Positions 4,314 to 33,440 of a stretch of DNA of 36,586 nucleotides are shown one piece after another (position 1 is the first letter of the stretch; each line of letters opens with the position of its first letter). The translations under genes were made by a program, and so were the position numbers. The DNA is from Singulisphaera sp. GP187. Lineage in GTDB: Bacteria; Planctomycetota; Planctomycetia; Gemmatales; Gemmataceae. The DNA is taken from NCBI GenBank assembly GCA_945905925.1, contig CAMDQN010000067.1, positions 1-36,586 of the forward strand. Direction: 5' to 3'. The notes beneath the pieces are model-generated. The model was not told the DNA's origin, searched no databases, and saw only the letters and a list, made by a program, of their open reading frames with translations.

Positions 4314-4425
4314 AACCAACCTCTCCCCCAACCCCAAGAAGGGAGGGGGAGCAGAACCAAAGACAAGAGCGCACAACCTTGTGTCTTTGGTTTGAAGCCC
4401 CTCCCTTCTTTAGGGGAGGGGTTCG
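4314..4425. repeat. Degenerate copy of the CT/AG-rich palindromic element
   Basis: A decayed relative of the element found inside smc and the TrmL gene. The left arm has CTCTCCCCCAACCCC and AAGAAGGGAGGGGG; the right arm has CCCCTCCCTTCTTTAGGGG. The loop contains a separate perfect 11-bp inverted repeat (4355-4365 with 4382-4392, AACCAAAGACA). It sits between the 27-residue small gene and the patatin start, so it would lie in the patatin 5' leader if the two are co-transcribed. Confidence 0.75.
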
Positions 4426-4430
4426 GTCTG

Positions 4431-4514
4431 TTACTTGCGGTGGCGAATCCGGGCGCGCATCCGTCGCTTCTTCCGACCCACCTTCCGCCGACCGGTGCCG
4501 CGACGCCGACCCAT
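4431..4514 (-). CDS. 27-residue highly basic small protein
   Basis: A small gene encoding 27 aa, more than half of them Arg or Lys, beginning MGRRRGTGRRKVGRKKRR and ending RHRK. On the coding strand AGGAG sits seven bases before the ATG, which is one of the best ribosome-binding sites in the window. The composition resembles tiny ribosome-associated basic proteins (for example bTHX, or the AURKAIP1/COX24-type small subunit proteins with a KKRR...HRK signature); that assignment is inference from composition only. The gene lies upstream of the patatin gene on the same strand with a repeat between them. An unrelated nucleic-acid-binding peptide is the main alternative. Confidence 0.6.
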   Translation of the reverse strand: MGRRRGTGRRKVGRKKRRMRARIRHRK

Positions 4515-6545: not shown

Positions 6546-6630
6546 TAGGGTGGGTCAAGGCTTTGCGCAGGCCCACCATCTTCTCTTCTCGTTGGCGTGG
6601 TGGGCCTGCGCAAAGCCTTGACCCACCCTA
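6546..6630. repeat. 33-bp perfect inverted repeat between ACP and dehydratase genes
   Basis: Arms 6546-6578 and 6598-6630 are perfectly complementary over 33 bp with a 19-bp loop. The arm reads TAGGGTGGGTCAAGGCTTTG and continues CGCAGGCCCACCA. It looks like a palindromic (REP/MITE-like) insertion rather than a simple terminator, because no T tract follows. In RNA it would form a very stable hairpin in the middle of the operon and could lower downstream expression or stabilise the upstream transcript. Confidence 0.9.
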
Positions 6631-8604: not shown

Positions 8605-9886
8605 GCGTGTGGTCATCACCGGGATGGGCGTCATCACCCCGCTGGGGCACAGCCCAGCGGAGTTGTTCGCGAGCGTCGTCGCGGGGCGCAGTGCGGTCGG
8701 CCCGATCGTTCACTTTGACGCGCGCACGTTCCCGACCACGTTTGCCTCGCAAGTGTCCGACTTCGACCTTGCGAAGTACCTGCCGGACGCGGCGAAGTTC
8801 CGCAACTGTGGCGTGAACACCAAGTACGCGCTCGCGGCCGGGAAACAGGCGCTCGCGGACGCCGGACTACTGGAAATCAAGGGCGACCGCTCGCGGATGG
8901 GCGTGTACCTCGGGTCCGGCGAGGGCCAGGAGAACTTCGAGGTGCTCACGTCGAGTACCGCGAAGGCGACCGCGGCCGGTGAGCGCACCGCGAACCTCCG
9001 CGAAGCCGCGGGCTGGTTGTTCAAACGGCTCAACGGTCCGCAAGAAGCGGAAGCCGAAATGTACGCGCCTTCGGGCTACCTCGCCGACACCTTCGCGCTG
9101 GACGGGCCGTTCGCGTCGTGCCAGACAGCGTGCGCCGCGAGTTCGCAGGCCCTCGGCGAAGCGGGCGAAATGATCCGCACCGGCGAAGCGGACGTGATGC
9201 TCGCGGGCGGATCGCACAGCATGATCACGCCCACCGGCATCAGCGGTTTCAATCGGCTCACGGCGCTCTCTCAACGGAACGACAGCCCCAAAACCGCGAG
9301 CCGGCCGTTCGACCTCACGCGCGACGGCTTCGTCATCGGTGAAGGCGCGGGTTTGATGGTTCTCGAAGAACTGGAACACGCGAAGGCACGCGGCGCGAAT
9401 ATCATTGCCGAACTGAGCGGTTACGGCTCGACGGCCGATGCGTACCGCATGACGGACCCGCATCCGCAGGGCAAGGGCGCGATCCGATGTATGGCCGACG
9501 CGCTGACCGACGCGAAACTGAACCCCACCGACATCGGTTACATCAACGCACACGGCACGAGTACACAGGCCAACGACGCGGCCGAAACAGCCGCTATCAA
9601 AAGCGTGTTCTGCGACCACGCGTACAAGCTGCCGGTTTCGAGCAGCAAGAGTATGCTCGGCCACCTGATCGCCGCAGCCGGGGTCGCAGAACTGGTGATT
9701 TCCGTGATGGTGATTCAGAAGGGCGTGATCCCGCCGACGATCAACCTCGAAACGCCCGATCCCGCCTGTGATCTGGATTACGTTCCCCACCACGCACGAG
9801 AAGCACGCGCCCGCCACGTGCTGTCGAACAGTTTCGGCTTTGGCGGCCAGAACATCGCCCTCGTTGTAAGCGCGTTTCGAGGGTGA
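8597..9886 (+). CDS. fabF: Beta-ketoacyl-ACP synthase II-type ketosynthase (KS-alpha)
   Basis: A 429-aa FabF-type condensing enzyme performing decarboxylative condensation of malonyl-ACP with an acyl chain. The full catalytic set is visible: Cys179 in QTACAASS, His319 in NAHGTST, Lys351 and His356 in SSSKSMLGH, plus the C-terminal NSFGFGGQN loop. The start overlaps the preceding CLF-like gene by eight bases (GAGG at 8586-8589), implying coupled translation. Taken with its inactive partner, it fits the KS-alpha half of a type II KS/CLF pair rather than a stand-alone housekeeping FabF, though FabF-like activity in membrane lipid synthesis cannot be excluded. Confidence 0.93.
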   Translation: MRRRVVITGMGVITPLGHSPAELFASVVAGRSAVGPIVHFDARTFPTTFASQVSDFDLAKYLPDAAKFRNCGVNTKYALAAGKQALADAGLLEIKGDRSRMGVYLGSGEGQENFEVLTSSTAKATAAGERTANLREAAGWLFKRLNGPQEAEAEMYAPSGYLADTFALDGPFASCQTACAASSQALGEAGEMIRTGEADVMLAGGSHSMITPTGISGFNRLTALSQRNDSPKTASRPFDLTRDGFVIGEGAGLMVLEELEHAKARGANIIAELSGYGSTADAYRMTDPHPQGKGAIRCMADALTDAKLNPTDIGYINAHGTSTQANDAAETAAIKSVFCDHAYKLPVSSSKSMLGHLIAAAGVAELVISVMVIQKGVIPPTINLETPDPACDLDYVPHHAREARARHVLSNSFGFGGQNIALVVSAFRG

Positions 9887-9890
9887 GTGC

Positions 9891-9915
9891 GTTTAGCGTT
9901 GGTCCCGCAGGGGCC
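9891..9915. repeat. GTTTAGCGT-hairpin element, copy 1
   Basis: GTTTAGCGT followed by a 6-bp stem with a 3-base loop (GGTCCC/GGGGCC, one G-U pair) directly after the ketosynthase stop. A similar module lies at 27088-27112, where the stem is GGACCC/GGGTCC; the stem bases differ in a pairing-compatible way. Confidence 0.45.
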
Positions 9916-9961
9916 ATGCTTATTCGTATCATGAGAGGTTGGTGATTGTAACAGGACGTTC

Positions 9962-9989
9962 CTCGTCGTTGAGACGAGCGATTTATAAT
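9962..9989 (+). promoter_or_regulatory. Putative promoter and dyad before the hydrolase gene
   Basis: A perfect TATAAT at 9984-9989 lies 34 bases before the GTG start of the hydrolase gene. Immediately upstream is a dyad CTCGTC-GTTGA-GACGAG (9962-9978) where a -35 box would be; no good -35 is visible, so an activator or repressor site is plausible. Confidence 0.4.
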
Positions 9990-10023
9990 TTGGAAACGAG
10001 TCATTCAACCCGGAGGTTCCAGG

Positions 10024-11019
10024 GTGGTTTTCTGGTTGTGGATATTAATCTCAGTGCTCGCCGTCCCACCCATCGCGGTCGGACTAGTCATGGCCGTGAC
10101 GTACCTCTACGTTCGCTGGAAGTACATGGGATTTCTGACCCGTATTTTCACCGAGAAGCCGCTGTTCGTCGTACCGCGTGGCGAACCGGACCCGAGCGCC
10201 GAAGAGATCACGCTCTCGGCTCCCGACGGCTTGGCGCTTCGCGGGTGCTACCTCGCCACCACCGCACCGCGGCGCCGCGGTGTAATCCTGTTCGGTTTGG
10301 AGTTCGGTTCCAACCGCTGGGCGTGCCGACAGTATTGCCAGGCGCTCGTCGAAGCGGGCTACGACGTGTTCGCGGTCGAACCACGGAACCAGGGCGATAG
10401 CGGGCGAGACCCGAACTACGAACCGCTCCAGTGGGTGACCGACCGCGACGTGTCCGACATGCGCGCGGCCGTCGCGTACCTTCGGGCGCGCCCGGACGCG
10501 GACCCGAACGGCATCGGCATTTTCGGTATTAGCAAAGGCGGGAGCACCGGCGTGTTGATCGCGTCCACCGACCCGTGGGTGAAGTGCGTCGTGACCGACG
10601 GCATGTACGGCACGCACACCACGATGGTGCCGTACATGCAGCGCTGGATTCAGATTTACAGCGGCAACCGTCGGCTTCAAAAGGTGATGCCGTCGTGGTT
10701 CTACGGCATGGTCGGCAACGTGGGCGTGAAGCGCGTCGCCCGCAACCGCGGCGTGAGTTACCCGAGCGTGGAGAAGGCCGCATCGCGCCTGAACCGCCCG
10801 CTGCTGATGATCCACGGTGCCGGCGACACGTACATAAAACCAGAAATGGCTCAGGCGATGTTCGCGCGGGCGTCGGGCGCGAAGACGTTGTGGCTGGTGC
10901 CCAACGCGAAGCACAACCAGGCGCTGCACGTGGCCGGCGAAGAGTACAACCGCGCGGTGGTCGAGTTCTTCGACCGACACCTGGCGCGCGAGGACGTGGA
11001 ACTGCTGCCCGTGGGGTGA
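10024..11019 (+). CDS. Alpha/beta hydrolase with N-terminal membrane anchor
   Basis: A 331-aa alpha/beta hydrolase starting at GTG, supported by GGAGG seven bases upstream. Residues 5-30 form one hydrophobic membrane segment; the catalytic domain follows. The nucleophile elbow is GISKGGS (Ser170), a likely acid is Asp268 in HGAGDTY, and the His is His297 or His302 near the C-terminus. The fold covers thioesterases, lipases and peptidases. Lying between the ketosynthase pair and the GH3 gene on the same strand, it could release or trim an acyl product, but this is inferred from position. A perfect -10 box 34 bases upstream suggests it may also have its own promoter. Confidence 0.85.
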   Translation: MVFWLWILISVLAVPPIAVGLVMAVTYLYVRWKYMGFLTRIFTEKPLFVVPRGEPDPSAEEITLSAPDGLALRGCYLATTAPRRRGVILFGLEFGSNRWACRQYCQALVEAGYDVFAVEPRNQGDSGRDPNYEPLQWVTDRDVSDMRAAVAYLRARPDADPNGIGIFGISKGGSTGVLIASTDPWVKCVVTDGMYGTHTTMVPYMQRWIQIYSGNRRLQKVMPSWFYGMVGNVGVKRVARNRGVSYPSVEKAASRLNRPLLMIHGAGDTYIKPEMAQAMFARASGAKTLWLVPNAKHNQALHVAGEEYNRAVVEFFDRHLAREDVELLPVG

Positions 11020-11020
11020 G

Positions 11021-11108
11021 GAACCTAACCCCCAACCTCCCTGAAGGGAAGGGGAGCAAGACAGGTAACCATTCTCCCTTCCCTTCAGGGATGGTTGGGG
11101 GGTAGGTC
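11021..11108. repeat. Variant copy of the CT/AG-rich palindromic element
   Basis: Imperfect inverted repeat. The left arm, roughly 11023-11056, has CCCCCAACCTCCCTGAAGG; the right arm, roughly 11074-11107, has CCCTTCAGGGATGGTTGGGG. It is related in layout (CCCCAACC...GGTTGGGG ends) to the elements in smc and the TrmL gene, but has CTGAAGGG in place of CTAAGAAGGG. It begins directly after the hydrolase stop codon. Confidence 0.75.
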
Positions 11109-15541: not shown

Positions 15542-15646
15542 AGTCTCAAGTCGGCAGGTCGCAAGTCGCAAGTCAACAGCCACGGCGCGGGACAGGCGAT
15601 CTACCCGTTCTCCGACTTGGGACTTGTGACTTGAAGACTTGAGACT
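15542..15646. repeat. Heptad-word stem-loop between accB and accC
   Basis: The outer arms AGTCTCAAGTC (15542-15552) and GACTTGAGACT (15636-15646) pair perfectly. Inside, both sides are made of 7-bp units: AGTCTCA, AGTCGGC, AGGTCGC, AAGTCGC on the left and GACTTGG, GACTTGT, GACTTGA on the right. It occupies almost the whole intergenic gap. It could attenuate or process the accB-accC transcript. Confidence 0.8.
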
Positions 15647-17605: not shown

Positions 17606-18232
17606 GTGGAGTTGGTAAATGTTACTATCGCATCCGGCGTGAGAGTTCAACAACTAACCGAACTAATTGTTGCGGGTCGGACAACACCCGAATCGCAGGA
17701 CAAGAGGCGGGGGCGGAGGTCCGATCGCGTGGCGACACCCCGGCGAGCGAGCGACCCGGCGCAGGTGGACCGGGCGTGGTTCGGGTATCACCCGCGGGCG
17801 ATGGCTCCGACCGTCGTGGCGGTCGCGGCGATGTCGCTGTTCGTGTGGACCGGGCGGTGGTACCTGGACGACCTGTCCGAACTGGCGAAACGGGCCGGTG
17901 CGCTGGCGGTGTTTGCGGTCGCGTGGGGCGCCTGGCCGGCGCTGGGGACGGTGTTTGTGTACCGCACTGTGACGTACACGTACCGGCTCACGGACCGCGC
18001 ACTTGTCGTCGATTTCGGATTCTGGTTCCGCCCTGTTCCGCCAATGCTGCTGGTCGATGTTATCGACGTGCGCGCCAGCGCCGGAATCCTCGGCCGCGTG
18101 CTGGGTGTGGGGGGGGTGGAGGTCCGAACCGCTGACCGCGCGGTGCGACTGGTCGGCGTGCGCCGCCCCGGCGCGGTCGCGGAACAAATCCGCGTTGCGG
18201 TCACGGCGAACCGTAACCGCGCCGCGGGGTAA
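17606..18232 (+). CDS. PH-domain-like membrane protein (bPH2/YdbS-like)
   Basis: Up to 208 aa. After a basic N-terminal region there are two membrane segments (about residues 67-83 and 93-113). A beta-rich domain follows, beginning YRLTDRALVVDFGFWFRPVPPMLLVDVIDVRASAG, the pattern of bacterial PH domains of the YdbS/YdbT type. Function of such proteins is poorly known. The start is uncertain: GTG at 17606 has GGGGAAG upstream, but an in-frame GTG at 17729-17731 would begin closer to the conserved part (ATPRRASDP). It converges on smc with 58 bases between the stops, where I see no clear terminator. Confidence 0.72.
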   Translation: MELVNVTIASGVRVQQLTELIVAGRTTPESQDKRRGRRSDRVATPRRASDPAQVDRAWFGYHPRAMAPTVVAVAAMSLFVWTGRWYLDDLSELAKRAGALAVFAVAWGAWPALGTVFVYRTVTYTYRLTDRALVVDFGFWFRPVPPMLLVDVIDVRASAGILGRVLGVGGVEVRTADRAVRLVGVRRPGAVAEQIRVAVTANRNRAAG

Positions 18233-18290: not shown

Positions 18291-21200
18291 TCACGCGGCT
18301 TGCGCGGAATCTCCATTTTCCGCGTCGGGCCAGTCCTCGAACCGCATCGGTAGCAGCCGGCTGATGCCACTCTCCTGCATTGTCACGCCCCAGAGCCGGT
18401 CCGCGGCGGCCATCGTTCGCTTCTTGTGTGTGATGACGATGAACTGACTGCGGTCCAGAAACTCGCGCAGCACGCCCGCGAGCCGGGTCGTGTTCGCTTC
18501 GTCGAGCGCCGCGTCCACTTCGTCGAGGATGCAGAACGGCGACGGCTTGTTGCGAAAGATCGCGAGTAACAGCGCGACCGCGGTCAGCGTCTTTTCGCCG
18601 CCGGAGAGCAGCGACAGCGCTCGCAGTTCCTTGCCCGGCGGCCGTGCGGTAATCTCGATGCCCGATTCCAACACGTCAGACTCGTCTTCGAGAATGATGT
18701 CCGCCTGCCCGCCACCGAACAACTTACGGAACAGTTCTTGGAAGTAGCCCCGGACCGCCGCAAGCGTGTCGGTGAAAACCTTCCGGCTTTTGCCGTTGAT
18801 GTCGTCGATGACCTCTTGGAGCGACTGCCGCGCGGCATTGAGGTCGTCGTGTTGCGATTGCAGCGCGTTGAACTCGGATTCGACGCGGGTGAGTTCGTCG
18901 AGCGCTTCCATGTTCACGCTGCCGAGCCGCGCGAGTTTGCGCTTCAGGTCGTCGATCTCTTGTTGCGCCTCGAAGGTATTCTGGGCGAGCGGGGGCGTGA
19001 GCCTCGCTGTTTCTTCTTCGGCGCTCGCCGGGTCAACGAGTTCATTCAACTCCAGTCCGTAGTCCTCACGGATGCGCTGCACGACTGTGTCGCGGCGGGC
19101 GCTGAGGTCGTGAACGGCCAACTCACGGGCGTGTGCGGCGGCTTGCTTCTCCTGCCACCCGTGGCGCAGTTCGTGCAGCCGGTCGCGGACGCGCTCGCGC
19201 GCGTCGCGATCGGTCGCGGCTTTCGTCGCGAGGTCGGTCACGAACCGCTCGCGTGACTCCTTTTCGCGATACGCTTCCGCTTGACCCGCCGAAGCGCGGA
19301 GCGCGGAAAGCACGCAGTCCGCGAGCCGACCCCCCGCGTTCCGATCCGCGGACGAAAGGTCAACCGCTTCGATTTTCCGCTTGCGCAAGTCGGCGTCGAT
19401 CTGCGTGAGTCGCTCGCGTGCCCGGTCGCGGTCGGCCGCGGCGCGACTGAGTGCCACCTGCGCGGCGGTGTGCGCCTGTTCTCGCGCGCCGCGCTCGGCC
19501 AGGCCGGACGCGAGCGCGAGCTTCACCTCCGCGAGCCGGGCCGTGAGTTCCGCCGCCGCGTAATCCGCTTCTTCCGCCGCCATTCGCGCCGCGACCCACG
19601 CGGCCTCGCCCTCCTGCACCTGTTCTTCGAGAAGGAGGCTCTCGGTCCGGTTCAGGTCGATCTCGGCGTCCAGGTTTTCGACCTGCTGCCGCTGCCTCGC
19701 GATGCGTTGAAGGAGGTCGCCGGCCTCGTCGGAGAGCAGCGAGACTTCGGCTTCGAGGGCTTCGATCACGCCCTCCGCGGACTCGGCCTGTCGGCGCAGA
19801 TCCGCGAGTTCACCCTCGGCGCCCGTGACGAGTTCCGACGTAGTACGGAACTGCTCGCGCAGTTCGCGCAGTTCGCTCTTCCGCGACACCAAACCCGCTT
19901 CAGCCTTGAGTGGACCGACGGTGAGCGTGCCGTCCGGCTCGAGCAATTCGCCGTTTCTCGTGATGACGCGGTGCGAAGAGTGAATGGCCGCGAGCCAGCG
20001 CGCGTCCGCGAGCGTATCCGCGAGCAGCACGCGCCCGAGCAACTGCGTTGGGAGTTCGGCGCAGTTGGGGTGATCACAGGTGACGTATGAGGCGAGCGAG
20101 GGGGAAGCACCTCTCCCCCCAACCCCCTCCCCTAAGAAGGGAGGGGGAGCCGGAATCGAAGAAGTTGCTGCTTCTTCTCTGACTCCCCCTCCCTTCTTAG
20201 GGGAGGGGGTTGGGGGGAGATGTGCTTCACGCGCCAAGAGCGGCACGAACCCCACGCGGCCAGCCACTTCGCCCACGGCCGCGGCGACCGCGTCCACGGC
20301 CTCCAGCGATCGCACCACGAACCGCTGAGCTGTGTCGCCGAGTGCGAGTTCGACGAGCGGCGCGACCTCGCGCGGTACCGTGAGCAAATCGGCCACTAGC
20401 CCGACGACGGCGTCGAGCGAAGCGTCCGTGTTGGTCGCGGCGTTTCGTCGGCGCCAGACGGCCGCGACGCCCGCACCCAGTCCCTCGAGCGCGCGCTCCA
20501 GGTCTTCGAGTACGTCGATGCGCCCGCGCAAATCGCCCTGCCGGACGCGGTAGGTTTCGAGTTGTGTCTGCACGTCGCCGAGGCGGTCGGTGAGCGTGTC
20601 GCGGTCCGCCGTCAGGTCATCGATTTGCTCGCCCGCCGCGGCGAGTCGCGCCTGCACGTCGGCGTCGGCCTGTGAAAGCCCGTCGAGCGCGTGCGCGAGC
20701 GCGGTCCGTTGGGAAGATTTGTGTTCGCGGTCCGCGAGCTTTCGCGTGTACTCCTTCTGCAATCGCGTCACTTGCGCGAGGTTCGCCTCGGCCGTGGACT
20801 TGCTCGACGCGGCGTGACGGATCAACTCCATTTGCTGTTGCTGTGCTTCGGCCTGTTCGCGGTCGAGTTCGGCGAGTTGTGCGGTAATGGCCGCGAGCGT
20901 GGCGCTCACGTCGTCGGCGCACGTCTGTTCTTCGGCCAGGCGCGACTCGGCGGCGGCGCCTTCCACCGTGGCGCGGGCCATGTCAGCTTCGATCACTTTC
21001 AACCGATAGCCCAAGTCCGCGCGCTGCCGCCCGACCTTCAGTAACTCCGCTTCGAGGCTCTGCGCGGTGGCTCGCTCGTGCTTGAGTGTTGCGTCGAAAC
21101 CGGTGATCTGCTGTCGCGCGTCGGCCAATCGCGCCTCGTGGTGACGCTGTGATTCCTCACCTCGCGTCACGGCCCAGTCGAGTTTCTTCGCCTGCTGTTC

Positions 21201-21992
21201 GAGTTGCTCGGCTTCGGTCGTCGCACCAGAGACCTCCAATTTGAGTGAAGCGAGCGCCGCTTGCTCCGTGGTCAGTGAGGCAGTGAGAACGCGGTACTCA
21301 CGCACGCCCAGCCCGACGCGCAGCTCGCGCAGCCGGTCGGAGTATTCCTTGTATTTCTGAGCTTTGGCCGCTTGCGCGCCCAGCGTACGGCGCTGACCGT
21401 CGAGCGCGTCGAGCCGGTCCTTCGACCGCGTGAGGTTCAACTCGACGGTCGTGAGTTTGCGAAGTGTCTCGGTTTTCCTCGCCTTGAACCGGCTGATGCC
21501 GGCGGCTTCGTCGAAGATCTCGCGCCGGTCTTTCGTGGATGCTTGAAGCAGTTCATCAACGCGACCCTGCGCGATGATCGTGTAGCCGCCGCTGCCGGCT
21601 CCGCTGCCGAGGAGAATGTCCTTGATGTCCTTGAGGCGGGACATCTGACTGTTGATGAGGTATTCGCCGGTGCCGTCGCGGTAGACCCTTCGTGTGAGTT
21701 GCACTTCGTCGGCATCGACCGCGAGCAGCCGGCGCGAGTTGTCGAACGCGACCGTTACTTCTGCCATGCCGAGGCTTTTACGCGAACTCGAACCGTTGAA
21801 GATCACGTCGGCCATTTCGCCGCCGCGGAGGCTCTTCGCGGACTGCTCACCCAGAATCCACCGAACGGCGTCGACGACGTTGCTCTTGCCGGACCCGTTC
21901 GGACCGACCACGCCCGTTACCCCGGGCGCGAAGTCGAACCGCGTCTTGTCGGCGAAGGACTTGAAGCCAACGAGTTCGAGTCTTTTGAGCAT
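18291..21992 (-). CDS. smc: Chromosome segregation ATPase SMC with repeat-derived hinge insertion
   Basis: A 1233-aa SMC protein. The N-terminal ATPase half has Walker A GPNGSGKS (30-37). Two long coiled coils flank a hinge, and the C-terminal half has signature LSGGEK near 1129 and Walker B CILDEVDAALDE near 1155, all intact. The usual length is about 1190; the extra roughly 42 residues (589-630) are encoded by a palindromic element inserted in frame within the hinge region. The peptide includes LPPTPSPKKGGG and PPPFLGEGVGGRG. The protein should still work as a chromosome condensin; an exposed hinge loop would tolerate the insert. No scpA/scpB is in the window. The 5' region is a heptad-word palindrome abutting the start codon. 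Confidence 0.96.
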   Translation of the reverse strand: MLKRLELVGFKSFADKTRFDFAPGVTGVVGPNGSGKSNVVDAVRWILGEQSAKSLRGGEMADVIFNGSSSRKSLGMAEVTVAFDNSRRLLAVDADEVQLTRRVYRDGTGEYLINSQMSRLKDIKDILLGSGAGSGGYTIIAQGRVDELLQASTKDRREIFDEAAGISRFKARKTETLRKLTTVELNLTRSKDRLDALDGQRRTLGAQAAKAQKYKEYSDRLRELRVGLGVREYRVLTASLTTEQAALASLKLEVSGATTEAEQLEQQAKKLDWAVTRGEESQRHHEARLADARQQITGFDATLKHERATAQSLEAELLKVGRQRADLGYRLKVIEADMARATVEGAAAESRLAEEQTCADDVSATLAAITAQLAELDREQAEAQQQQMELIRHAASSKSTAEANLAQVTRLQKEYTRKLADREHKSSQRTALAHALDGLSQADADVQARLAAAGEQIDDLTADRDTLTDRLGDVQTQLETYRVRQGDLRGRIDVLEDLERALEGLGAGVAAVWRRRNAATNTDASLDAVVGLVADLLTVPREVAPLVELALGDTAQRFVVRSLEAVDAVAAAVGEVAGRVGFVPLLAREAHLPPTPSPKKGGGVREEAATSSIPAPPPFLGEGVGGRGASPSLASYVTCDHPNCAELPTQLLGRVLLADTLADARWLAAIHSSHRVITRNGELLEPDGTLTVGPLKAEAGLVSRKSELRELREQFRTTSELVTGAEGELADLRRQAESAEGVIEALEAEVSLLSDEAGDLLQRIARQRQQVENLDAEIDLNRTESLLLEEQVQEGEAAWVAARMAAEEADYAAAELTARLAEVKLALASGLAERGAREQAHTAAQVALSRAAADRDRARERLTQIDADLRKRKIEAVDLSSADRNAGGRLADCVLSALRASAGQAEAYREKESRERFVTDLATKAATDRDARERVRDRLHELRHGWQEKQAAAHARELAVHDLSARRDTVVQRIREDYGLELNELVDPASAEEETARLTPPLAQNTFEAQQEIDDLKRKLARLGSVNMEALDELTRVESEFNALQSQHDDLNAARQSLQEVIDDINGKSRKVFTDTLAAVRGYFQELFRKLFGGGQADIILEDESDVLESGIEITARPPGKELRALSLLSGGEKTLTAVALLLAIFRNKPSPFCILDEVDAALDEANTTRLAGVLREFLDRSQFIVITHKKRTMAAADRLWGVTMQESGISRLLPMRFEDWPDAENGDSAQAA
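20104..20228. repeat. Palindromic element inside smc
   Basis: Arms 20104-20149 and 20183-20228 pair at 45 of 46 positions around a 33-bp loop. The arm contains CTCTCCCCCCAACCCCC then TCCCCTAAGAAGGGAGGGGG. It is nearly identical in the arms to the copy at 32594-32730, and both have GGGG immediately before and CACGC right after on the plus strand, which helps define the element ends. No transposase is encoded, so movement would need to be in trans. Confidence 0.93.
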
Positions 21993-21996
21993 CGTG

Positions 21997-22128
21997 TTCG
22001 GTGTTTAGTGTTTAGGTGTTTAGTGTTTGGTGTTTCAGTGGGAAGTTCCAGGTCGGTCGCGCTCCAAACGCGGTATGTGATCCCGAACCCAGGCTCCCAA
22101 ACACTAAACACCAAACACGAAACACGAA
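21997..22128. repeat. Heptad-word palindrome between smc and FlgI-like gene
   Basis: Left side (about 21997-22035) repeats GTGTTTA/GTGTTTG units every 7 bp. Right side (about 22098-22127) repeats AAACACT, AAACACC, AAACACG, AAACACG. The sides are complementary and fill the whole 137-bp gap between the FlgI-like stop and the smc start. The same word is used at 25857-25941. Confidence 0.8.
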
Positions 22129-24281: not shown

Positions 24282-24782
24282 TCAGCTTGAGCGGAAAGCG
24301 CCAGAACTGGTCGATTGTCTCGGATGAAGTAACCGCCACGCGCACACACCCAGTCCGATCCCGAACCAGTCGATGAGCACATCGCGCACGCTTCCGAAGC
24401 GATTGGAAACGAACGTCTGGCCGATCTCGGTTGCCACGCCATGGAGCGCGAGCAGGCCCACGAAGTACCACTTCCAGTAGCGGGGCACCGGGAGCGTTAT
24501 GGCCAGTATCGTGAGGAACACGTACCCGCCCACGTGCAGCGACTTCGCGGCCCAGAACCGCCAGTCGCCGGGAGAGAACACTGACAACTGGGCGGACAGC
24601 GATTCGGGTACGGGGTTGGGTTCGAGGAGTTTCCACGTCCAGAGACCGAGGAACACCGCGAACACGAGGAAGCGGAAGAGGAAGAAACCTCTCCCCCCAA
24701 CCCCCTCCCCTAAAAAGGGAGGGGGGTGCGGACTTTCTCCCTTTTTAGGGGAGGGGGTTGGGGGGAGAGGTTCTTCCGTCAC
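24282..24782 (-). CDS. VanZ-like membrane protein with repeat-encoded N-terminus
   Basis: A 166-aa membrane protein with four hydrophobic segments and the pattern KSLHVGGYVFLTIL...HGVATEIGQTFV...SVRDVLIDWFGIGLG typical of VanZ-like domains (the D-x2-x-N/D-x-x-G motif is seen as DVLIDWFGIGLG). Family function is largely unknown outside teicoplanin resistance. The GTG start at 24782 overlaps the mcsB stop (GTGA), so translation is probably coupled. Codons 5 to about 31 come from a palindromic element and read PLPPTPSPKKG...PPPFLGEGVGGRG, placed directly before the first membrane helix. A start after the repeat is possible, but no good alternative start codon precedes the first helix. Confidence 0.8.
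   Translation of the reverse strand: MTEEPLPPTPSPKKGESPHPPPFLGEGVGGRGFFLFRFLVFAVFLGLWTWKLLEPNPVPESLSAQLSVFSPGDWRFWAAKSLHVGGYVFLTILAITLPVPRYWKWYFVGLLALHGVATEIGQTFVSNRFGSVRDVLIDWFGIGLGVCAWRLLHPRQSTSSGAFRSS
24686..24772. repeat. Palindromic element at the 5' end of the VanZ-like gene
   Basis: Arms 24686-24720 and 24738-24772 pair perfectly over 35 bp with a short 17-bp loop. The core differs slightly from the smc and TrmL-gene copies (CTAAAAAGGGA in place of CTAAGAAGGGA). It lies four codons after the GTG start of the VanZ-like gene and keeps the frame open. Confidence 0.92.
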
Positions 24783-29828: not shown

Positions 29829-32222
29829 TTACACCGCCGCCTTCTTGCGTGCATCCCACTCGTCGGGCGAAATCATCACCTGACGCGCGTTACTGCCGTT
29901 GAAACCGCCGACGATACCGTCTTCCGCCATGTAGTCGATCAATCGCGATGCCTTCCCGTAGCCGATACCGAGCGCGCGTTGCAACAACGACGTGCTGCCA
30001 CGCTGTTCGCGGATGACAATTTCCACCGCCTGCTCGTAGATCGGGTCGCGCTCGCGGAGCTTCTCGCCCATGGCGCTGTCGTCGTTCGTGGCGGCTTCCA
30101 TTTGCTCGCGCGTTTTCAGGTTTTGAAGCTCGCTGTCATAGGTCGGCGTGTCGGTTGCAATCGCGGCGACGACGCGCTCGATCTCCTCGTTCTCCACATA
30201 CGCGCCCTGCGCTCGTGTGAGCTGACCGGTTTGGAGGAACAGCATGTCGCCCATGCCGAGCAGCCGCTCGCCGCCTTTCTCGTCGAGAACCACGGCGCTG
30301 TCGGAACGGTTCGTGACGCGGAAGCAGATGCGCGCCGGCATGTTCGATTTGATGAGGCCGGTCACCACGTCCACGGTCGGCCGCTGCGTCGCGAGAATCA
30401 GGTGAATGCCACACGCGCGCGACTTCTGCGCGAGCATGATGATGTTCCCTTCGATCTCCTTCTTCATCTTCATCATGAGGTCGCCGACCTCGTCGATCAC
30501 GATGACGATGTACGGCATCTTGCGGGGAATCGCGCGCAGTTCGTCTTCGCTGTCGGGGTTGACGCGGCGTGCGATCTCTTCAAAGGGAAGTTCGTTGTAC
30601 GCGGCGATGTTCCGCACGCGGGCGCGGTGCAGCCACTCGTACCGCTCTTCCATCTTGTCCACGGCCCAAGCCAGAATCGCGTCCGCCTTCTTATCTTCTT
30701 TTACTACGGGCGTCATTAAGTGCGGAATTTGCGCGTAGTCGCTCAGTTCGACCTTCTTCGGGTCGATGAGGATCATGCGGCACTCGTCGGGCCGGCGCGT
30801 TAATAGCAAACTCACGATGATGGTGTTCAGGCACACCGACTTCCCGGTGCCGGTGCTGCCCGCGATGAGCAAGTGCGGCATCGTCGCGAGGTCGTAGGCG
30901 AGTGGACGGCCTTCCACATCCTTGCCGACAAACAGCGGCAACTTGAACTTCGACACCTTCGGCGTGCCCGCGAGCGCGGAGACGAGTTCCTTCAGTTGAA
31001 CGGTCTGGCGGATCTCGTTCGGCACTTCAATGCCGACCGTGTTCCGGCCCGGCAAAGGTGCGACGATTCGGACGGTGGGCACCTTCAGGTTGAGCGCGAG
31101 GTCGTCCGCGAGGTTCGTGACCTTGTTCAGCCGCAACCCGGTTTCGAGCGCGATCTCGTATTGCGTGATGACCGGTCCGGTGTGAATGCCGACCACCTTC
31201 ACGCTCACGCCATAGTCCAGAAACGCTTTCTCCAGAAGCACCGCGACCTCGCGCAACTTCTGTTCATGATCTTCAACCGGGAACGGTTCAGGGTCGTTGA
31301 GCAGCGACAGCGGCGGCAGTTCATAATCGACGTTCGAGAGCTGTTCGTCCGGTGGCGGGGCCGCGTGCAGAAGGAGCGAGGGCTTCGGTCCGGCGTGAAC
31401 GTGAATCGGGATGTCTTCGTGTTTCGCATCGTCCTCCGGTTCGCTCGCGGGCGGCGGAACCGGCGAGCGCACCAGTGGCGGCGGCGCTGTGGAAACGGAA
31501 ACGGGGTTGATCTTCAGTATCGGTGCGGAATGTACAGGAGGCGAAGTCGCCTTGCGCACAGGCACGACCGCGAGTGCGCGATTCGCCGCGCCCATTGTGC
31601 CGCGCCCGATGGCTTTCATCGCGGTTCCGACGCGAGTGAATACCACTTCCATCGCGTCCGCGACGCGGTCATTGACCCACACCGCGCCCTTCCAAACCGC
31701 GCGAAACACAACCCACGCGACGTGCCCGAGAAGCGCCGCGAGCCAGTCGGCCACGAGCATCACCCCGACGACGACCGAAAGCGCGAGCACGATTAGCGCC
31801 ACAGTCGGCTCGGTCGCGTCTTCGAGGCCGAACCGCAGGTAGGCGCCGACCGACCCGCCGCGACCCGCGACCGACGGTGCCGGCAAACCGATTCCGAACC
31901 AGTCCACGCCCACCGCGGCGGATGTGGTCACGACGCACCAGCCGACGACTCGCACCACGAACCGACCCGGCGTGCGCCGGGCGACGAGCAGCGCCACGAC
32001 CGCGAACCAGCCCGCGAGCAGCACGAACGACGCCCAGCCGAGCGGTTCGAGGAGCCAGCCCGCTGCTTCCTCGCCCCACGCTCCGAACAGGTTTGATCCG
32101 CCAGTCAAAGCGTGCGCCGACCCGACCGCGACCGCGAGCAGCAGGCCCACGACCAGGAGCGTGATGGCGAGCGCATCGACCCGCCACGGCGACTGAAGCG
32201 AAGGTGCGTTCTTTTCCGTCAT
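29829..32222 (-). CDS. ftsK: DNA translocase FtsK/SpoIIIE
   Basis: About 797 aa. The N-terminal 200 residues contain four membrane helices, followed by a Pro-rich linker. The motor domain has Walker A GSTGTGKS near 452, Walker B VIVIDEVGDL near 573, and the RecA-like core with PTVRIVAPLPGRNTVGIEVPN. The C-terminal winged-helix gamma domain (ALGIGYGKASRLIDYMAEDGIVG) would bind KOPS-type sites. It moves chromosome ends through the division septum and activates XerCD. The ATG at 32222 is preferred; a longer frame opens only with TTG. Divergent from the TrmL gene, it shares a 158-bp upstream gap with no other feature that I can support. Confidence 0.95.
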   Translation of the reverse strand: MTEKNAPSLQSPWRVDALAITLLVVGLLLAVAVGSAHALTGGSNLFGAWGEEAAGWLLEPLGWASFVLLAGWFAVVALLVARRTPGRFVVRVVGWCVVTTSAAVGVDWFGIGLPAPSVAGRGGSVGAYLRFGLEDATEPTVALIVLALSVVVGVMLVADWLAALLGHVAWVVFRAVWKGAVWVNDRVADAMEVVFTRVGTAMKAIGRGTMGAANRALAVVPVRKATSPPVHSAPILKINPVSVSTAPPPLVRSPVPPPASEPEDDAKHEDIPIHVHAGPKPSLLLHAAPPPDEQLSNVDYELPPLSLLNDPEPFPVEDHEQKLREVAVLLEKAFLDYGVSVKVVGIHTGPVITQYEIALETGLRLNKVTNLADDLALNLKVPTVRIVAPLPGRNTVGIEVPNEIRQTVQLKELVSALAGTPKVSKFKLPLFVGKDVEGRPLAYDLATMPHLLIAGSTGTGKSVCLNTIIVSLLLTRRPDECRMILIDPKKVELSDYAQIPHLMTPVVKEDKKADAILAWAVDKMEERYEWLHRARVRNIAAYNELPFEEIARRVNPDSEDELRAIPRKMPYIVIVIDEVGDLMMKMKKEIEGNIIMLAQKSRACGIHLILATQRPTVDVVTGLIKSNMPARICFRVTNRSDSAVVLDEKGGERLLGMGDMLFLQTGQLTRAQGAYVENEEIERVVAAIATDTPTYDSELQNLKTREQMEAATNDDSAMGEKLRERDPIYEQAVEIVIREQRGSTSLLQRALGIGYGKASRLIDYMAEDGIVGGFNGSNARQVMISPDEWDARKKAAV

Positions 32223-32380
32223 TTGGCCGACCCCGAAACCGCGCGCCGGGCACAACCCACATTATCATTCGTAAGACGCGCTCTCTGAACTCGAGAACAC
32301 GCCTCGCGCGATCGGTTTTCGTGTTCTCCACTCGGAAGTGCCGGTACAACACGAACGGCCGGAACAATCGGAGAAGTCGC

Positions 32381-32968
32381 GTGCTGCACGTTGCATTGTG
32401 GGAACCAGAGATACCGCCCAACACCGGGAACATCGCGCGACTTTGCGCCGCGACCGGGACGCGCCTCCACCTGATCGGGCGCCTCGGGTTCAGGCTCGAC
32501 GACCGCTCGCTGCGGCGCGCTGGTCTCGACTACTGGCACGCGGTCGATGTGGTGCGGCACGTTACGTTCGAGGACTTCGAGCGCGTGATGGGGGAAGAAC
32601 CTCTCCCCCCAACCCCCTCCCCTAAGAAGGGAGGGGGAGCCGGAGAAGAACCATTTCCTACTTCGTTACTTTCTTGTGCCTTTTCTCCCCCTCCCTTCTT
32701 AGGGGAGGGGGTTGGGGGGAGAGGTTCTTCACGCATCTGGTGCGTGGAGACGCCGAACCAGAAGCCGTACACGCGGGCCGACTTCGCCGATGGCGACTGT
32801 CTGCTGTTCGGCAACGAGTCGAGCGGGTTGCCAGCGTCCGTGCGCGAGCGGTATGCGGAGCAGCTCGTTGGCATCCCGATGCCCACCGGGGCCGTGCGGA
32901 GCCTTAACCTCGCGACCGCCGTCGGCATCGTCCTCTACGACGCACTGCGCCGCCTGCACGGCTGGTAG
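32381..32968 (+). CDS. trmL: tRNA (cytidine(34)-2'-O)-methyltransferase with repeat-encoded insertion
   Basis: A 195-aa SPOUT-fold methyltransferase of the TrmL family, which 2'-O-methylates the wobble nucleotide of tRNA-Leu. Motifs: EIPPNTGNIARLC at the N-terminus (trefoil-knot fold), LLFGNESSGLP, and the final IPMPTGAVRSLNLATAVGIVLYDAL. Normal TrmL is about 155 aa; residues 72-117 are encoded by an in-frame palindromic element and read PLPPTPSPKKGGG...PPPFLGEGVGGRG. They fall in a loop between EDFERV and RIWCVET, outside the knot. Start is GTG at 32381 with GGAGA upstream; the upstream in-frame ATG is unrelated sequence. Confidence 0.93.
   Translation: MLHVALWEPEIPPNTGNIARLCAATGTRLHLIGRLGFRLDDRSLRRAGLDYWHAVDVVRHVTFEDFERVMGEEPLPPTPSPKKGGGAGEEPFPTSLLSCAFSPPPFLGEGVGGRGSSRIWCVETPNQKPYTRADFADGDCLLFGNESSGLPASVRERYAEQLVGIPMPTGAVRSLNLATAVGIVLYDALRRLHGW
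32594..32730. repeat. Palindromic element inside trmL
   Basis: Two perfectly complementary 46-bp arms (32594-32639, 32685-32730) around a 45-bp loop. It is the best-preserved copy in the window, so probably the youngest. The reading frame stays open through both arms and the loop in the trmL frame. Confidence 0.95.
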
Positions 32969-33368: not shown

Positions 33369-33440
33369 TGAGTAATGAGTAACAGGCAGAAGACCAGAAG
33401 TGTAAGTGCCTTTGGTCTTCTGCCTTTTACTCATCACTCA
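33365..33440. terminator. Bidirectional stem-loop between converging genes
   Basis: A perfect 13-bp stem AGGCAGAAGACCA (33384-33396) with TGGTCTTCTGCCT (33413-33425), extended by outer TGATGAGTAA/TTACTCATCA. The outer left side has 7-bp units (GTGATGA, GTAATGA, GTAACAG). It overlaps the stop of the 90-aa gene and lies just before the stop of the thioredoxin-fold gene, so it can serve both transcripts. Confidence 0.75.

Follow-up and report, generated by a model that had tools for sequence, protein, structure and literature searches.

A dispersed palindromic element lies in frame in the SMC hinge of a planctomycete, at one of many sites that hold different palindrome families in related genomes

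The smc gene in the 36,586-nucleotide stretch of DNA analysed here (the window) carries a long palindrome within its coding sequence, which raises the question of what this element is and how the protein accommodates it. The gene encodes a chromosome segregation protein of 1233 amino acids on the minus strand (18291-21992), identified from its open reading frame and from Pfam and NCBIfam. The NCBIfam model SMC_prok_B (TIGR02168) scores 915 bits against a cut-off of 567 and matches in two stretches, the better of which stops at residue 595, where the insert starts. The palindrome spans 20104-20228 and consists of a left arm of 46 nt (20104-20149, plus strand), a loop of 33 nt that varies among copies (20150-20182, plus strand) and a right arm of 46 nt (20183-20228, minus strand), with a small hairpin of its own in each arm, at approximately 20123-20147 and 20185-20209. 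An earlier, sequence-only reading had placed a mobile element with 46-bp arms and a single mismatch at these coordinates, in frame in the hinge, and our palindrome scan, codon frame and domain search agree: 45 of the 46 arm positions are complementary (98%), the insert reads as 42 stop-free codons (residues 593-634), and these fall within the Pfam SMC_hinge domain (PF06470, residues 528-668, converted to 19989-20411 on the minus strand), which the element splits. Folded as DNA the palindrome reaches -66 kcal/mol, compared with a mean of -23.3 (sd 2.9) for dinucleotide shuffles (z -14.5), and none of 200 shuffles was equally stable. From these sequence comparisons we consider it likely that the insert is a short, non-autonomous palindrome of a dispersed family, termed family A here, that inserted into smc in this lineage with the frame preserved, and that its translation would add a flexible Pro/Gly-rich loop of some 42 residues to the hinge linker.

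To place the insert we used AlphaFold2 with an alignment of 35 sequences from this analysis, and obtained a hinge model with a mean pLDDT of 84.6. The hinge blocks mostly lie between 86 and 97, and almost all of the insert (model residues 104-145) falls in blocks of 54-63 with no secondary structure; structure prediction, which had been suggested as a check, shows a hinge that is well predicted apart from the insert, which forms a loop of low confidence. The best PDB match of the model is 1gxl, the T. maritima SMC hinge (E 2e-10). The insert follows GRVGFVPL and aligns by sequence with a variable stretch after GRATFLPL in 5h69, a solved bacterial hinge. Model and alignment together indicate that the insert lengthens a length-variable linker within the hinge. 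The conserved GELLEPDGTLTVG stretch, which lies later in the hinge and which we take to be the Gly-rich dimer-interface motif, is left intact. The location in the hinge stands, but to describe it as the place of DNA entry and dimerisation goes too far, since the insert sits in a variable linker and GELLEPDGTLTVG is untouched. SMC probably still works with the insert, which is probably without a designed function.

The source genome (G000) is a 251-contig draft of 6.47 Mb, and a search of both strands with the smc element gave at least 94 matches, with 40 of 212 candidates scored. We identified 70 full copies (71 entries, one overlapping pair) in 639,220 nt of this genome, most of it chosen because copies lay there; the first three contigs, taken irrespective of copies, hold nine copies in 338,250 nt, a density equivalent to about 170 per genome. 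The arm core with at most one mismatch occurs 238 times in G000, compared with 44 times for the reversed pattern. When two mismatches are allowed the core alone is unspecific for family A (24 occurrences in 338 kb against 18 for the reversed motif), and for this reason our counts are based on paired arms and on the one-mismatch core. The two-mismatch core counts over the same 338 kb were 0, 3, 0, 8, 5, 2 and 1 for families B, C, D, F, G, H and I, with controls of 0, 0, 0, 0, 0, 0 and 1. The stretches of G000 that were scanned first (472 kb) contain 88 palindromes with arms of at least 22 nt. A query with another family A copy found matches in 14 of the 19 genomes of the genus, with no match in G007, G008, G014, G015 and G016. 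The genus is probably Gemmata, judging from SMC loci of that name that are identical in sequence to those of G001, G013, G014 and G016. In calling the element mobile we argue from its copy number and from sites in relatives that have no family A.

Two further family A copies lie in the window. Copy 2 (24686-24772) sits between two minus-strand genes, at a site where G005 has no element and G004 has a different but related palindrome. Copy 3 (32594-32730, with arms to 32587-32737) is in frame as residues 141-191 of a 267-residue, stop-to-stop ORF on the plus strand (32165-32965) encoding a TrmL-like SPOUT methyltransferase, in which Pfam SpoU_methylase matches in two stretches and the NCBIfam TrmL model scores 155 bits, under its cut-off of 190.6. 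Diverged palindromes at 4314-4432 (I18) and 11023-11107 (I17) have arms that resemble family A, and palindromes of other types are present at 6546-6630, 15542-15646, 21992-22120 and 33369-33440. Rfam gave 26 matches between positions 18000 and 33500, all of them to miRNA hairpin models and all under the gathering score; any long perfect hairpin may match such models, and a structured RNA identity was dismissed. Elsewhere in G000, two intergenic family A copies, at C118:5378 (L143) and C12:50707 (L166), provide the upstream gene with its final codons and its stop (TSPPNPLP-stop).

We also observed that smc is one host among many. A codon score on both flanks, a measure of codon composition, places 23 of the 70 family A copies in frame and stop-free inside genes, after three of 26 in-frame entries were dropped (C42:38482, a duplicate, and C1:115373 and C25:48488, which lie upstream of start codons). 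The attention given to SMC in the sequence-only reading was right about the in-frame insert but not about SMC as a special host, and its parallel with the Rickettsia palindromic elements holds, as this is a multi-copy palindrome found in frame in unrelated genes. All but two of the 23 hosts have a Pfam match: SMC, the TrmL-like SPOUT methylase, an FAD-linked oxidase, CobW, a type III polyketide synthase, three PMT-type glycosyltransferases, an amine oxidase, a methyltransferase, a 2-oxoacid dehydrogenase E2, a polyprenyl synthase (FPP synthase), chorismate synthase (AroC), a PSCyt2/PSD1 protein, a poly(A) polymerase/CCA-type nucleotidyltransferase, an SF1 helicase, QueG, a DEAD helicase, an acyltransferase/AMP-binding protein, an ABC transporter and RecD2. 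The best NCBIfam model is split at the element in SMC, AroC, QueG, RecD2, FPP synthase and the TrmL-like protein, the last with a two-stretch match below cut-off. The frame of the arms that contains stops is used in none of the 23 copies, although stops are scarce in GC-rich DNA and an open frame by itself is weak evidence. The 5' arm is translated as ..PPTPSPKKGGG in 16 of 23 and as ..SPQPPPLRREGE-like in seven, and the 3' arm as ..PPFLGEGVGGRG in 20 and as SPSLLRGG-like in three. Disorder-promoting residues make up 77% of the inserts compared with 49% of the 200 flanking residues, and proline plus glycine 38% compared with 14%.

The other 47 copies are not counted in genes, and lie between genes, upstream of starts or in places without a clear call; 27 of the 70 were scored as noncoding or other and three as in the same frame with a stop. 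Fifteen have coding sequence on both sides without a shared frame, 14 of them with both flanks on one strand. Among these 14 the upstream frame ends 5-19 nt before the element in 11, inside it in two (+28) and beyond it in one (+137). We read these copies as lying between genes and not as frameshifted hosts.

We next turn to the same hinge loop in relatives, which was measured between the anchors GRVGF(V/I)P(L/V) and (S)LA and was usable in 16 of the 19 genus genomes; G008, G010 and G012 gave no usable hinge. Nine of the 16 hold inserts of 72-223 nt whose inverted repeat exceeds those of 40 shuffles, and these belong to different families: A in G000, B in G005 and G017, C-rich and A/C-like in G001, G002, G004 and G018, B-like plus another in G015, and another again in G007. 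The loops of G009 (48 nt) and G014 (42 nt) are short and borderline, and those of G003, G006, G011, G013 and G016 (5/16) measure 30-69 nt and have no inverted repeat beyond shuffles. The same loop therefore holds other families in relatives, which goes beyond what a single sequence could reveal. The idea that all Gemmataceae SMC proteins share this segment as an ancestral domain does not fit, as inserts of at least 72 nt occur in only nine of the 16, in mixed families, and others have short plain loops; we reject an ancestral hinge domain on these grounds. Outside the genus, we started from 40 named Planctomycetota loci and removed 11 that repeated the genus, one other repeat and two without a flank, and an inverted-repeat insert was present in the hinge loop of one of the remaining 26 (L111). 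The length of the hinge stretch is a multiple of three in 15 of the 16 genus members. The exception is G001 (Gemmata sp. IIL30; L054 and L116), where a 223-nt insert contains stops and divides SMC into two ORFs, either through a real break or through an error of assembly. The SMC tree places G000, G005 and G017 next to G004, G001 and G002 and puts G003 outside them. Seven insert labels require eight changes on this tree compared with a mean of 10.4 when shuffled, and a value as low was reached in two of 200 shuffles; this clustering indicates that some inserts were inherited and others gained or lost separately.

The pattern extends to the other host genes. Using flanks we located the orthologous sites in G005, G017 and G004, giving 53 site-relative pairs from 22 of the 23 sites (C182:6489, with one flank only, was left out, and since C127:15094 is a member of a large family of paralogues, its counterparts may be paralogues and not orthologues). 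An insert of at least 30 nt is present at the junction in 45 pairs and a shorter one in eight. With family labels assigned from hand-made motif lists, ten of the 45 hold family A alone, seven family A plus another family, 18 another family, four unassigned palindromes, and six no palindrome; an inverted repeat that exceeds those of 60 shuffles is present in 35 of the 45 and absent from the other ten. Family C, a relative of A, accounts for eight of the 18 pairs with another family. In control flanks we found an indel of at least 15 nt in 3 of 106 (15.9 kb), although flanks and sites were sampled differently, the sites having been picked for an element in G000, and loops of this kind may be indel-prone regardless. 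In 51 of the 53 pairs the lengths differ by a multiple of three, the exceptions being C21:42925 and C42:38447, both in G004. Reading on from the left frame, the insert is free of stops in all 53, these two included, a weak argument in GC-rich DNA. Site sharing is partly inheritance, as in the ten comparisons with family A alone. At the eight sites with family A in both G000 and G005 the arms are 92.9% identical (654/704), the coding flanks 85.3% (819/960) and the loops 44.6% (145/325). Either the arms have been renewed, by conversion among copies or by new insertions at that position, or the loops have been replaced.

How might such a pattern arise? Palindromes of about 75-160 bp with a small hairpin in each arm multiply in these genomes, as the copy numbers show, and we think it most likely that family A is spread by an enzyme acting in trans, a mobiliser that is hypothetical. 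Insertions that shift the frame or bring stops would be purged, and those in frame in tolerant, flexible places would survive, as the frame statistics suggest. A tolerated spot, once occupied, would be dispensable, and other palindromic elements could nest in the resident, add themselves in tandem or replace it. Related species would come to hold different families at one place, although the order of these events is our reconstruction.

A stronger form of this proposal is that the sites are fixed docking loops, in which an existing palindrome or its hairpin is the preferred target, so that unrelated families are actively exchanged and, over evolutionary time, species come to swap in-frame peptide cassettes at an identical codon of SMC and other essential proteins. 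We offer this tentatively and regard it as somewhat unlikely. It is quite possible, if short of probable, that permissive loops are simply few and that unrelated elements land in them repeatedly, with no need for a resident. SMC itself fits such independent hits, as G015 has an insert and its sister G011 has none, and G018 has one when G013, G014 and G016 have none or a borderline loop; C17:57104 is similarly empty in G005 (7 nt) and holds three different inserts in G000, G004 and G017. Turnover of residents, however, better explains the nested and tandem elements, which indicate that elements do land in or beside others: a family B unit lies within the loop of a family A copy at C16:26258 in G005, and tandem elements occur in SMC of G001, G002 and G015 and at several G004 sites. 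It also better explains short tails that resemble an element end at sites of G004 that would otherwise count as empty, at C66:33851 (17 nt) and in the TrmL-like gene (25 nt; 19 nt in G005). A single old insertion at each site that has diverged beyond recognition, the explanation favoured for RPE-4/6/7 in PMC3767692, appears quite unlikely here. The relatedness of families A and C (local score 24 between arms of 46 and 42 nt) and the clustering of labels on the SMC tree speak for it, as does C42_L145:13437, where the loop can be aligned between G000 and G005 and the sequences look like plain inheritance. It is already strained for families F, G, H and I, however, whose arms bear no resemblance to A (scores 5-7) and which nevertheless occupy the site in eight of the 53 comparisons, at seven sites, a count that includes one 24-nt unit. 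Including family B raises this to 12 comparisons at nine sites, and B is a separate repeat in 16 of the 19 genus genomes, G000 among them.

The same observations bear on what the insert does. A long perfect hairpin in the mRNA of an essential gene may be an obstacle, and the insert could be missing from the mature product, through skipping in the RNA or by ribosomes or through cutting of the protein. We consider this very improbable; skipping would relax the constraint on frame and stops, yet frame is kept in 51 of 53 pairs and the stop-bearing arm frame is avoided throughout. There is just as little to recommend the idea that the insert tunes SMC, for example as a loop under selection in Gemmata for a role in binding or regulation. 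Long inserts do recur in the hinge loop across the genus, but their peptides vary by family, sister species are without them, and the same peptide is found in many unrelated enzymes. As to the mobiliser, family A could be a genuine REPIN that depends on a RAYT-type Y1 transposase for its movement, given its architecture of two hairpin-bearing units in inverted order. RAYT-type enzymes, many of them next to palindromes of other families, occur in 16 of the 19 genus genomes, and an inverted repeat scoring at least 15, in a score without shuffle control, lies near 18 of 32 Y1 loci. This remains unlikely, since a family A, B or C core was found in none of the 32 loci examined (of 80 matches in all) in flanks of up to 1.5 kb, and G002, which is 98% complete, has no Y1_Tnp match and yet 91 matches to the family A query. 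A RAYT linkage of family A was dismissed for these 32 loci. Two Y1 loci in G000 look from their sequence like RAYT-REPIN systems of other families: L022 (C29, approximately 9726-10521), a transposase ORF flanked on both sides by near-identical GTTAGCCGCAAGCCG-type palindromes, and L023 (C99), which has a different, GTTTAGCG-type palindrome downstream. No parent transposon for family A was met in the stretches we read, and target-site duplications could not be resolved because the nearest element-free sites are about 10-20% diverged. A candidate autonomous parent at L202 (C25:8730-9505), with arms 760 bp apart, was rejected as the ORF in the intervening DNA is small, has a best PHROGs E value of 0.093 and is not a transposase. 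At this locus several hundred bases, by eye richer in AT, interrupt a family A arm where its inner hairpin has its tip, through either an insertion or a misassembly.

Elements of this kind are already known. The Rickettsia palindromic elements (RPE) of Ogata et al. 2000, as related in PMC10969869 and PMC3767692, are about 150 bp, and nearly half of those in R. conorii are in frame (PMC10969869). Like family A, they are scattered palindromes (about 70-190 bp) that lie in frame in unrelated genes, with translations made in silico and falling in solvent-exposed parts, and in both systems different groups are found at or near the same place in orthologues. For the shared RPE sites PMC3767692 favours one diverged origin for RPE-4/6/7, with hotspots possible. 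The likeness is one of kind and we claim no sequence relation; our host is a free-living planctomycete, the families are GC-rich, and the residents of shared sites include families without sequence resemblance, where PMC3767692 leans to a common origin. Absence of family A from the same site in relatives, a mark of the RPE, was seen in the eight of 53 pairs below 30 nt, with another family at many others. The REP/REPIN and RAYT systems (PMC3116915) share with family A the inverted pair of hairpin units, the many copies, the conserved ends and the variable spacer, and differ in that 23 of 70 family A copies lie within genes with no RAYT beside A, B or C in the 32 loci. Among the GTAG/CGTC REPs, many intragenic copies lie in DNA repair genes, and different REPs occupy about the same recB site in two Xanthomonas species (PMC3733652). 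These too are repeats inside coding regions, but the paper describes same-site occupation for recB and, in its other genes of this category, different sites, whereas in Gemmata it affects most of the 22 sites compared; neither a GTAG nor a CGTC tag is visible by eye on the family A arm. Prokaryotic MITEs (PMC10969869) are similarly short, non-autonomous, multi-copy inverted repeats, and differ from family A in the parent transposon and target-site duplication, neither of which was found here.

As far as we have found, the extent of these insertions in Gemmata and the re-use of the same site by sequence-unrelated families are new; a search of the open-access literature, with subscription papers outside its scope, returned no report of such elements in Gemmata. 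In-frame palindromic insertion has so far been described mainly in Rickettsia, and the choice between a hotspot and one diverged insertion becomes testable here because the families at one site can be unrelated. Sister species also provide natural insertion mutants, in which a loop of SMC, chorismate synthase or RecD2 can be compared with and without 30-70 extra residues. A separate observation concerns L112, whose SMC is the same as that of G007: its hinge contains a second repeat-like peptide, GEGEAPAEPEPHGSAGASPS, at an earlier position, before GLVADLLTVP.
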